DNA of 64,000 bases, taken from the NCBI RefSeq assembly GCF_041381155.1, contig NC_091134.1, positions 35,841,540 through 35,905,539 of the forward strand, in the 5' to 3' direction. Positions 37,001 through 43,000 of this stretch are shown here, in pieces. The stretch is from Argopecten irradians (Eukaryota; Mollusca; Bivalvia; Pectinida; Pectinidae). Each line of letters begins with the position of its first letter. Position 1 is the first letter of the stretch. The notes beneath the pieces are model-generated. The model saw only the letters and a list, made by a program, of their open reading frames with translations. It had not been told where the DNA came from and did not search any database. Made by a program: the position numbers and the translations under genes.

Positions 37001-40000
37001 TCCTTATTTGTATTGTATCCATGAGATGTCTTTCATGCTTTGTGAGCTCTGTCTTACTGGGTTTTTTTCCAGGTATAAGTGCAACTATACTGGGTGCCCG
37101 CGTACTTACAGCACACCAGGGAACCTCAGAACACATCAGAAAACTCATAAAGGTAAAACAATACAAGGTTAATTTATACATACAGCATAGTAGGGAATTA
37201 CTAAAATACAGCAAAAAACCTAAAAACACATCAATAAATTCATACGGTAAATGGATCTAGTGTTTCATATGTTACCTAGAGCAAGTATATCATAAAACTT
37301 GTACAGTTAAATGTAAACAGATGCAGTAAGTAATTTATGTAATTAGCTTTGTAGTAAACCAAAGAAAACATTCGAAAACTGATAAATGATAATGATAAGG
37401 AGAATGTTTATAGGATTGTTCAAAAGATACACAAAGTACATGTACTTGGAAAGCTCTGTGGAATCAGACCCTGATACATCAAATTTCATTAATCAATGAC
37501 TTTTTACTGGTGCTAAGGGGCAAATCTGAAATGCATTCAAAATGGGAAGCAACTACTAAGGTGTTAATGTGATTTTGTTTGTATCCTATAGATGTTTCTA
37601 TCCACAGGTGAATACACGTTTGTCTGCAATGAATCTGGGTGTGGAAAGTCTTTCCTCACATCCTACAGTCTAAAGATCCATGTTCGAGTCCACACCAAAG
37701 AGAAGCCGTACGAGTGTGAGCTGAGAGAATGTCATAAGTCCTTCAACACACTTTATAGGTAATCATGTGTGTTTATGTAGTCAGTGACATCAGTTACTAT
37801 CATTTCATAAGTCCTTCAACACACTTTATAGGTAATCATGTGTGTTTATGTAGTCAGTGACATCAGTTACTATCATTTCATAAGTCCTTCAACACAATTT
37901 ATAGGTAATGTGTGTTTATGTAGTCAGTGACATCAGTTACTGTCATTTCATACGTCCTTCAACACACTTTATAGGTAATATGTGTTTATGTAGTCAGTGA
38001 CATCAGTTACTGTCATTTCATAAGTCCTTCAACACACTTTATAGGTAATGTGTGTTTATGTAGTCAGTGACATCAGTTACTGTCATTTCATAAGTCCTTC
38101 AACACACTTTATAGGTAATGTGTGTTTATGTAGTCAGTGACATCAGTTACTGTCAATTCATAAGTCAATCAACACACTTTATAGGTAATGTGTGTTTATG
38201 TAGTCAGTGACATCAGTTACTATCATTTCATAAGTCCTTCAACACACTTTATAGGTAATGTGTGTTTATATAGTCAGTGACATCAGTTACTGTCATTTCA
38301 TACGTCCTTCAACACACTTTATAGGTAATGTGTGTTTATGTAGTCAGTGACATCAGTTACTATCATATCATAAGTCAATCAACACACTTTATAGGTAATG
38401 TGTGTTTGTGTAGTCAGTGACATCAGTTACTGTCAATTCATACGTCCTTCAACACACTTTATAGGTAATGTGTGTTTATGTAGTCAATGACATCAATTAC
38501 TGTCATTTCATAAGTCCTTCAACACACTTTATAGGTAATGTGTGTTTGTGTAGTCAATGACATCAATTACTGTCATTTCATAAGTCCTTTAACACACTTT
38601 ATAGGTAATGTGTGTTTATGTAGTCAGTGACATCAGTTACTGTCAATTCATAAGTCCTTCAACACACTTTATAGGTAATGTGTGTTTGTGTAGTCAGTGA
38701 CATCAGTTACTGTCATTTCATACGTCCTTCAACACACTTTATAGGTAATGTGTGTTTATATAGTCAATGACATCAGTTATTGTCATTTCATAAGTCAATC
38801 AACACACTTTATAGGTAATGTGTGTTTATGTAGTCAGTGACATCAGTTACTATCATATCATAAGTCAATCAACACACTTTATAGGTAATTTGTGTTTATG
38901 TAGTCAGTGACATCAGTTACTGTCATTTCATACGTCCTTCAACACACTTTATAGGTAATGTGTGTTTATGTAGTCAGTGTCATCAGTTACTGTCAATTCA
39001 TACGTCCTTCAACACACTTTATAGGTAATGTGTGTTTATGTAGTCAGTGACATCAGTTACTGTCATTTCATAAGTCCTTCAACACACTTTATAGGTAATG
39101 TGTGGTTATGTAGTCAGTGACATCAGTTACTGTCAATTCATACGTCCTTCAACACACTTTATAGGTAATGTGTGTTTATGTAGTCAGTGACATCAGTTAC
39201 TGTCAATTCATAAGTCAATCAACACACTTTATAGGTAATTTGTGTTTATGTAGTCAGTGACATCAGTTACTGTCAATTCATACGTCCTTCAACACACTTT
39301 ATAGGTAATGTGTGTATGTAGTCAGTGACATCAGTTACTGTCATTTCATACGTCCTTCAACACACTTTATAGGTAATGTGTGTATGTAGTCAGTGACATC
39401 AGTTACTGTCATTTCATAAGTCCTTCAACACACTTTATAGGTAATGTGTGTTTATGTAGTCAGTGTCATCAGTTACTGTCAATTCATACGTCCTTCAACA
39501 CACTTTATAGGTAATGTGTGGTTATGTAGTCAGTGACATCAGTTACTGTCAATTCATACGTCCTTCAACACACTTTATAGGTAATGTGTGTTTATGTAGT
39601 CAGTGACATCAGTTACTGTCAATTCATAAGTCAATCAACACACTTTATAGGTAATGTGTGTTTATGTAGTCAGTGACATCAGTTACTGTCAATTCATACG
39701 TCCTTCAACACACTTTATAGGTAATGTGTGTATGTAGTCAGTGACATCAGTTACTGTCATACCATAAGTCCTTCAACACACACTTTATAGGTAATGTGTG
39801 TTTATGTAGTCAGTGACATCAGTTACTATCATATCATAAGTCAATCAACACACTTTATAGGTAATTTGTGTTTATGTAGTCAGTGACATTAGTTACTGTC
39901 ATTTCATAAGTCCTTCAACACACTTTATAGGTAATGTGTGTTTATGTAGTCAGTGTCATCAGTTACTGTCATTTCATAAGTCCTTCAACACACTTTATAG

Positions 40001-43000
40001 GTAATTTGTGTTTATGTAGTCAGTGACATTAGTTACTGTCAATTTATACGTCCTTCAACACACTTTATAGGTAATGTGTGTTTATGTAGTCAGTGACATC
40101 GATCAGTTACTGTCATTTCATAAGTCCTTCAACACACTTTATAGGTAATTTGTGTTTATGTAGTCAGTGACATTAGTTACTGTCAATTTATACGTCCTTC
40201 AACACATTTTATAGGTAATGTGTGTTTATGTAGTCAGTGACATCAGTTACTGTCATTTTATAAGTCCTTCAACACACTTTATAGGTAATGTGTGTTTATA
40301 TAGTCAGTGACATCAGTTACTGTCAATTCATAAGTCCTTCAACACACTTTATAGGTAATGTGTGTTTATGTAGTCAGTGACATCAGTTACTGTCATTTCA
40401 TAAGTCCTTCAAAACACTTAATAGGTGATCATGTGTGTGTATGTAGTCAGTGACATCAGTTACTGTCATTTCATAAGTCAATCAACACACTTTATAGGTA
40501 ATGTGTTTTTATGTAGTCAGTGACATCAGTTACTGTCATTTCAAAAGTCCTTCAACACACTTTATAGGTAATCATGTGTGTGTATGTAGTCAGTGACATC
40601 AGTTACTGTCATTTCATAAGTCCTTCAACACACTTTATAGGTAATGTGTTTTTATGTAGTCAGTGACATCAGTTACTGTCATTTCAAAAGTCCTTCAACA
40701 CACTTTATAGGTAATGTGTGTTTATATAGTCAGTGACATCAGTTACTGTCATTTCATAAGTCCTTCAATACACTTTATAGGTAATGTGTGTTTATGTAGT
40801 CAGTGACATCAGTTACTGTCATTTCATAAGTCCTTCAACACACTTTATAGGTAATGTGTGTTTATGTAGTCAGTGACATCAGTTACTGTCAATTCATACG
40901 TCCTTCAACACACTTTATAGGTAATGTGTGTTTATGTAGTCAGTGACATCAGTTACTGTCATTTCATAAGTCCTTCAACACACTTTATAGGTAATGTGTG
41001 TTTATGTAGTCAGTGACATCAGTTACTGTCATTTCATAAGTCCTTCAACACACTTTATAGGTAATGTGTGTTTATGTAGTCAGTGACATCAGTTACTGTC
41101 ATTTCATAAGTCCTTCAACACACTTTATAGGTAATGTGTGTTTATGTAGTCAGTGACATCAGTTACTGTCATTTCATAAGTCCTTCAACACACTTTATAG
41201 GTAATGTGTGTTTATGTAGTCAGTGACATCAGTTACTGTCATTTCATAAGTCCTTCAACACACTTTATAGGTAATGTGTGTTTATGTAGTCAGTGACATC
41301 AGTTATTGTCATTTCATAAGTCCTTCAACACACTTTATAGGTAATCATGTGTGTTTTTGTAGTCAGTGACATCATTTACTGTATTTCTAGTCCTTCAAAC
41401 ATTTATAGGTAATCATGTGTGTTTATGTAGTCAGTGAATCATTTACTGTAATTTCTTTGTGTTTTGGAATATCATGTTTTCTGTAAAATAAATGTTGCAA
41501 AAAAGAAAAGAGATACATGTACTTTGAAATACATCAATATTTGAAAAAAAATGATACAAAGTTATATTGAAAAACATCAATATGTTGTGTCTGTTTCACT
41601 TATGTAACTATTTAACCACAATTTACTGATATCATTTTAAGATATGAAATATTCTTGTAGATTGAGGGCACATCAGAGGATTCATTCTGGGAATACATTC
41701 AACTGTGAGGAAGATGGCTGTACAAAGTACTTCACCACACTAAGTGACCTGAGGAAACACATAAGAACCCATACTGGTGAAAAGCCATTTGTGTAAGTAT
41801 AGTCATACCGACCCATACCTGTGAAACCATTTGTGTAAGTAGTCATACCAACCCATACCTGTTAAACCATTTGTGTAAGTATTCATACCTTCGACCCATA
41901 CCTGTGAAACCATTTGTGTATGTAATTAGTCATAACAACCCATACCTGTTAAACCATTTGTGTAAGTAGTCATACCGACCTAAACCTGTTAAACCATTTG
42001 TGTAAGTAGTCATACCGACCCATACCTGTTAAACCATTTGTGTAAGTAGTCATACCTTCAACCCATACCTGTGAAACCATTTGTGTGAGTTGTCATACTG
42101 ACACATAACTGTGAAACCATTTGTGTATGTAATTAGTCATACCAACCCATACCTGTGAAACCATTTGTGTCAGTTGTCATACTGACACATAACTGTGAAA
42201 CCATTTGTATAAGTACCCATACCGTCGACCTATACCTGTGAAATATTTGTGTAAGAAGTCATATACCGACCCATACCAGTTAAACCATTTGTGTTAACCC
42301 TTGTTTAAGACAATTGTTAGACTCATCTAATCAAAGAATTAAGATAAAGAAGAAATCTTAACAGAATTTTATTATCTTCTTTTTACAGCAGGTAATTTGT
42401 GATAAACAATACCATGATAAGTGGAGTTAAATGTCTACCTTTGATATACATGTAGTCAGTTTTAAAGATGGCAATAGTAACAGTATCATGACCATTTTAT
42501 AGATGTAAAGAAGATGGGTGTTCAAAAGCTTTTGCTGCTAGTCACCATTTGAAAACGCATCATCGCACACACACAGGTAAGATACTGGTAACTTTTACAT
42601 GTTCTTGACATTTTCATTCTCATTCGTTGATTCTTGACTAAACATTTTGAATATGTTAGACTCTGAAGACTAAAGAATAAGAACGGATGCTTTCAAAATA
42701 AGTTTCTAGCAGAAAGAGGTTTTTTTCAACTTTTGTGCTGAATTCTTAGTCTTTAGTAGCTTTTTACCTGTTAGCCAGCATTATGGACACCGTAAGTGCT
42801 CTTTGCCTTACCATGATATTTTATAGATAAAGCTGTAATATTTACCCAAGATATCTAATGAAATGACATGACTTTTGTGCTTGTTGTAAGGAATAAGAAA
42901 TATTGTGTTTTATGTGAAAATTTCCTATATTAGGTAAATTTACAAAACTTTTGTTATTTACAGGAGAGAAACCTTTCTCGTGTCAACAAGATGGATGTGC

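Follow-up and report, generated by a model that had tools for sequence, protein, structure and literature searches.

Tandem copies straddling splice donors of a putative MTF1 gene in Argopecten irradians, and arrays of the same kind at other exon edges

A 64,000-nucleotide stretch of the Argopecten irradians genome (RefSeq assembly GCF_041381155.1, contig NC_091134.1, positions 35,841,540 to 35,905,539 of the forward strand; hereafter the window) contains a C2H2 finger gene which, from its finger sequences, we take to be MTF1, the gene of MTF-1. The intron after exon 4 of this gene opens with 53 tandem units of about 70 bp, and the first unit includes the end of exon 4 and its donor. The explanation that we favour with good confidence is that an ordinary minisatellite began across the boundary of exon 4 and intron 4, grew into the intron and was tolerated. 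We prefer this neutral reading because the donor is spanned by the repeat unit, the copies fall within the intron, other exon edges in the genome look alike, and the rate at such edges is close to that of random intron points.

Once joined, six exons of the window form one open frame, in which six C2H2 fingers were counted by eye. Pfam zf-C2H2 was matched in three of the four exons that were run (exons 2 to 5), exon 2 giving no Pfam match. The PDB matches to the finger region were other finger proteins, none of which names MTF-1. The exons and the tandem copies at their edges are as follows.

36065 to 36205, plus strand: exon 2 of this reading, the segment preceding the fingers, open when joined; donor without a straddling copy
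37073 to 37152, plus strand: exon 3, finger 1; donor at 37153; Pfam zf-C2H2, 1.9e-6
37208 to 37287, plus strand: degenerate copy of the end of exon 3 with the donor region, 67% identical and offset by 95; E 1.9e-4 when 26 kb were searched and 2e-5 in a 600-bp self-search
37357 to 37410, plus strand: a further, weaker copy of the end of exon 3 with the donor region; 70% identity, offset 235; E 0.004 in the 26-kb search and 4e-4 in the 600-bp self-search
37608 to 37758, plus strand: exon 4, finger 2 plus the N-terminal half of finger 3; Pfam zf-C2H2, 5.9e-8
37732 to 41455, plus strand: array 1, made up of 53 units about 70 bp long; unit 1 consists of the last 27 nt of exon 4, the donor and the start of the intron
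37759 to 37760, plus strand: GT of the true exon 4 donor, leading the series of 53, placed by unit register and joined frame
41661 to 41792, plus strand: exon 5, the remainder of finger 3 and finger 4; Pfam zf-C2H2, 4e-7
41767 to 42294, plus strand: array 2, the end of exon 5 with its donor, CCATTTGT/GTAAGTA, and the start of the intron; about 13 copies with a period of about 40 bp
42503 to 42576, plus strand: exon 6, most of finger 5 (by eye); edges without duplication
42964 to 43070, plus strand: exon 7, finger 6 (by eye); edges without duplication

A sequence-only reading of the window had described about 53 tandem copies of an exon end together with its 5' splice site, and this observation is confirmed. 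Tandem Repeats Finder (TRF) returned a period of 70, 53.0 copies, 94% matches and a score of 6420 for array 1. The first in-register GT, at 37759, is the exon 4 donor, so that the first unit indeed overlaps exon 4 and its splice site; the copied exon part is 27 nt long rather than the 26 nt given before, since the match of unit 2 to unit 1 begins 27 nt before the end of exon 4. The unit length of 70 bp agrees with the TRF period but not with the first units, which measure 73 nt because units 1 and 2 are identical across 73 nt. An in-register GT is present in all 53 units, and the later donors are near-identical as had been stated, with TAG/GTAAT (the slash marks the splice site) in 52 of the 53 and TAG/GTGAT in one (GT at 40425). 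Adjacent units from 2 to 51 share a mean identity of 94% (49 pairs), and the likeness between units is not due to chance. Nevertheless 42 distinct sequences were found among the 53 units as cut by script, and a variant with C after GTAAT or GTGAT (GTRATC) is restricted to units 1, 2, 39, 41, 52 and 53, so that both ends of the array share a form that is rare in its middle. By its anatomy of head-to-tail, in-register copies with variant units, array 1 is a minisatellite.

When translation was continued beyond the normal exon 4 junction, it read AGG TAA, so that use of a later donor would place a stop inside finger 3, directly after the junction, as the earlier reading had predicted. The true donor is not the strongest of the series. 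With a home-made weight matrix it scored 2.22, while 47 of the 52 later donors scored higher (2.30 to 3.83), four equally and one lower; most of the higher ones exceed it by just 0.17, mainly through the base after GTAAT. The choice of the first donor must accordingly rest on position or exon context and not on donor strength as scored here.

The same arrangement is found at two further exons of the gene, where the earlier reading had reported neither the second donor-straddling array nor the two copies at exon 3. Array 2 opens the intron after exon 5 (40 bp x 12.6 by TRF), and its unit contains the last 26 to 33 nt of exon 5 plus the donor. Among the 12 units scored, a 13th, partial unit being left out, GTAAGTA is kept in six (true donor included), altered with the GT retained in five, and the GT is lost in one; the later donors of array 2 are decaying. 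Exon 5 ends TTTGT/GT, without AG, and the AG/GT unit ends that are present in the exon 4 array are absent in the exon 5 array. In total, three of the six MTF1 donors tested (exons 3, 4 and 5) are straddled by tandem copies. The 600-bp self-search found no straddling copies at the donors of exons 2, 6 and 7 and none at the six acceptors, in a test that placed the exon 6 donor and the exon 4 acceptor one base off. Weak matches between exons 6 and 7 were not counted, as they reflect finger-to-finger similarity.

Exon edges elsewhere in the same genome (846 Mb in 1508 contigs) were surveyed at 134 exon loci, comprising 70 of the 142 matches listed for kinase, 50 of 82 for myosin-head, 11 of 100 for P450 and 3 of 82 for ABC-membrane. 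The 30 best-scoring kinase and the 30 best-scoring myosin loci were taken first and the next 20 myosin loci in list order, while the remaining kinase, P450 and ABC loci were hand-picked, skipping nearly full-length matches; some loci share a gene. One of the loci, L045, holds a muscle myosin exon whose translation aligns with residues 3–105 of PDB chain 1dfk_A, a chain from Argopecten irradians, and differs from it only at the first two residues, which precede the exon start as called. Edges were called by script and then by eye, whereby L057, L078 and L117 were moved, L080 was added and L077 was dropped, so that 97 donors and 78 acceptors were retained. Downstream tandem copies, in the intron, were found at 4 of the 97 donors (L061, L078, L113 and L140; 95% interval 1.1–10.2%), and copies on the upstream, intron side at 5 of the 78 acceptors (L043, L065, L080, L117 and L132). 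Before correction and without the last 14 loci, the counts stood at 4 of 87 for donors and 3 of 67 for acceptors, with the L077 acceptor and its exon-side copy in addition. Exon-side copies were seen at none of the 175 edges kept. L077 was excluded from the acceptor count because its edge is unclear and its copy lies on the exon side, and L057 was not counted as straddled, since its donor had been miscalled and its array starts about 11 nt past the real one. A short-unit array at L049 resembles a donor array by eye; it failed the test and was likewise not counted.

The sequences of seven of the nine straddled edges were inspected, namely the donors L061, L078 and L113 and the acceptors L065, L117, L080 and L043. 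All seven have the same anatomy, and a feature specific to MTF1 was therefore rejected. At the donors, L078 carries a 54-bp array (6.2 copies by TRF, reaching the end of the stretch) with the junction GGGAAATG/GTGAGTAC, and L113 a 39-bp array (8.2 copies by TRF) with CCATAG/GTAAGTC, in which the GT is lost in four of eight units by eye. At the acceptors, the L117 array (46 bp x 6.9) reads GGTCAG/ATCTGTGATTTTGG and the L065 array (60 bp x 26) reads CTTAG/ATGTAA. The copies at L140, L043 and L132 are degenerate (65–67% identity). Exon-edge arrays are thus a general kind in the scallop genome and occur at both splice sites, the acceptor form mirroring the donor form.

Two of these loci and the dropped one showed further features. 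The 54-bp units of L078 (412–750) and the 60-bp units of L065 (802–1530; the last dozen or so of 26), both in reverse-complement coordinates, stay open in the exon frame, so that splicing at an inner site would lengthen the protein by 18 or 20 residues per unit and bring in no stop. At L077 (181–426, reverse-complement coordinates), a 118-bp tandem duplication with 98% identity lies within a myosin exon or at its start, where it would break the frame unless one copy were spliced out.

For comparison, 1548 control points lying in introns or in flanking sequence at the first 60 loci were tested in the same way as the edges. A first unit was hit at 34 of them (2.2%; bootstrap 1.2–3.2%) and a last unit at 36, while 93 more lay inside arrays. 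Arrays with a period of at least 12 cover 8.1% of the 206.8 kb sampled; according to the account of the A. i. irradians assembly in PMC7090048, TRF repeats make up 15.10% of it. Several points weigh against a purely neutral origin. The pooled edges (9 of 175) exceed the pooled control (70 of 3096; Fisher p 0.036), and exon edges may be mildly preferred. For acceptors alone the p value is 0.043 and for donors alone 0.28. Since the control points are clustered and some edges were corrected by hand, we read the edge rate as like that of intron points, perhaps up to twofold more. Three straddled donors out of six in MTF1 also beat the sampled rate (P ~0.0013 at 4.1%, 0.0002 at 2.2%), in a window that was chosen because it is odd. 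Furthermore, the donor nonamer ranks with the least variable parts of the array 1 unit: of the 62 nonamer windows, counting its own, only 4 show equal or lower variation, and this low variation could also come from constraint.

The excess at edges, together with the three consecutive straddled donors of MTF1, would fit active seeding of tandem arrays by exon edges, through a mutational process linked to splicing or transcription. We consider such seeding unlikely, as the significance is borderline and is not reached by donors alone, and because purifying selection on exon ends keeps old duplications detectable for longer, which could itself give the excess. Far more doubtful is a regulatory role, in which later donors would be used part of the time, ending the protein in finger 3 and lowering MTF-1 output. 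The GT kept in every unit, the 51 of 52 later donors that score at least as high as the true one with the home-made matrix, the immediate stop and the little-varying nonamer speak for such decoys. On the other hand, a homogenised array is expected to vary little in any case, nonamer variability is not decisive on selection within units, the decoys of exon 5 are decaying, and like arrays are found in other genes and at acceptors. The special brake on MTF-1 that the sequence-only reading had entertained is therefore unsupported, given the like anatomy at exon 5, in decayed form at exon 3, and in kinase and myosin genes, at donors as well as acceptors. That array 1 was inflated or invented during assembly is highly improbable: its copy number comes from one assembly, and a genome search with positions 42300–43100 of the window matched one place only, yielding no second MTF1 haplotype for a comparison of array length; yet the 42 distinct sequences and the unit order of the GTRATC variant are unlike simple or random stutter, and similar arrays are present at other loci.

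Recursive (ratchet) splice sites consist of an acceptor-like AG adjoining a donor, and the TTTATAG/GTAAT of the array 1 units is a candidate for such a site, arising simply because exon 4 ends in AG. Each unit is consequently GT...AG, a possible 70-nt intron with nothing between it and the next, and since the AG of every unit adjoins a GT, splicing from the first donor to any later AG would rebuild the exon end and the donor and leave the message unchanged. The array could hence be a ladder of 52 back-to-back units (mostly TTTATAG) that are removed stepwise, its length setting the splicing time. Among eight units given a home-made acceptor score, five reached 3.5 and the others 0.8 to 2.25, compared with –2.1 to 4.6 for six real acceptors, and 1.3% of 557 background AGs reach 3.5. 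The exon 5 array, which has no AG, differs in this respect. We regard the ladder as very improbable.

The course that we favour, tolerated growth of an ordinary minisatellite, would have begun with a tandem duplication, followed by slippage or unequal exchange in a genome where tandem repeats abound. A duplication across a donor would leave the upstream donor beside an intact exon, and its use would give an unchanged message in which the other copies are intron. In the mirror case at acceptors, the exon-proximal acceptor would still be spliced and the remaining copies would be intronic. With normal mRNA still made from the exon-proximal site, selection would hardly notice a duplication across an exon edge, and such a duplication may grow. 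What keeps the first donor in use is probably exon definition together with exon sequence, not a better donor site, and low-level use of a wrong donor would produce an immediate stop and probably mRNA decay.

Intronic minisatellites and variable number tandem repeats show the array structure, unit length and variant units seen in array 1; the scallop unit differs in holding an exon end and a donor, functional in the first unit. A related route is the AGGT model of intron gain (Rogers 1989; Hellsten 2011, ATP2A1), in which a duplicated AG/GT segment gives GT...AG units that are spliced out of an unchanged message, and in fission yeasts multiple tandem copies of a 24-bp AGGT segment occur with the intron extending across several copies (both as described in PMC4974935). 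The exon 4 array is like these cases, as portrayed there, in having AG/GT at both unit ends. In contrast, the scallop segment straddles an existing donor, so that an intron already present grows longer and none has to be created; there are far more copies, and the exon 5 array is without AG. No new intron in formerly exonic sequence was found, as exons 4 and 5 join in frame with finger 3 intact. In the potato RdRp gene, a tandem duplication across an intron-exon boundary, at the acceptor, created a new intron (PMC4974935). The scallop array likewise crosses an intron-exon boundary, but with many copies and, judged by anatomy, without a new intron. Thus, set beside these cases as that source presents them, which create introns, the scallop arrays appear to lengthen existing ones. 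A literature search by title or start of abstract found no exon-edge-straddling arrays described as a class, a weak negative given that in some of the searches several terms had to co-occur.

Our results point to donor and acceptor arrays as a frequent and largely harmless side effect of tandem duplication, not a special switch, and suggest that introns may gain length from exon edges in this simple way. They also represent natural experiments in splice-site choice, with dozens of near-identical sites and a normal message from the exon-proximal one only, and such loci separate site strength from position and exon context. With 26,777 genes and 7.11 exons per gene given for A. i. irradians (PMC7090048), a donor rate of 4 in 97 throughout the genome would mean copies in thousands of introns, an extrapolation from four protein families, mainly two.

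Other repeats of the window were also recorded. Arrays of 155–157 bp lie at 16957–17783, 22945–24189, 36319–36790 and 44028–45162, and likewise at L022 (3123–3762); the unit at 36319 is close to that in L022, on another contig, so that these arrays are likely a dispersed satellite. The 145/291-bp arrays at 53726–54809 of the window and at positions 1–857 of L033 have similar units in opposite orientation. Large 54-bp (and 216-bp) arrays at 11926–14421 have a period that is a multiple of three and may be a coding repeat. Finally, the segments 27893–28114 and 28413–28634, which are 520 bp apart, encode an identical 73-aa open frame, indicating a recent duplication.

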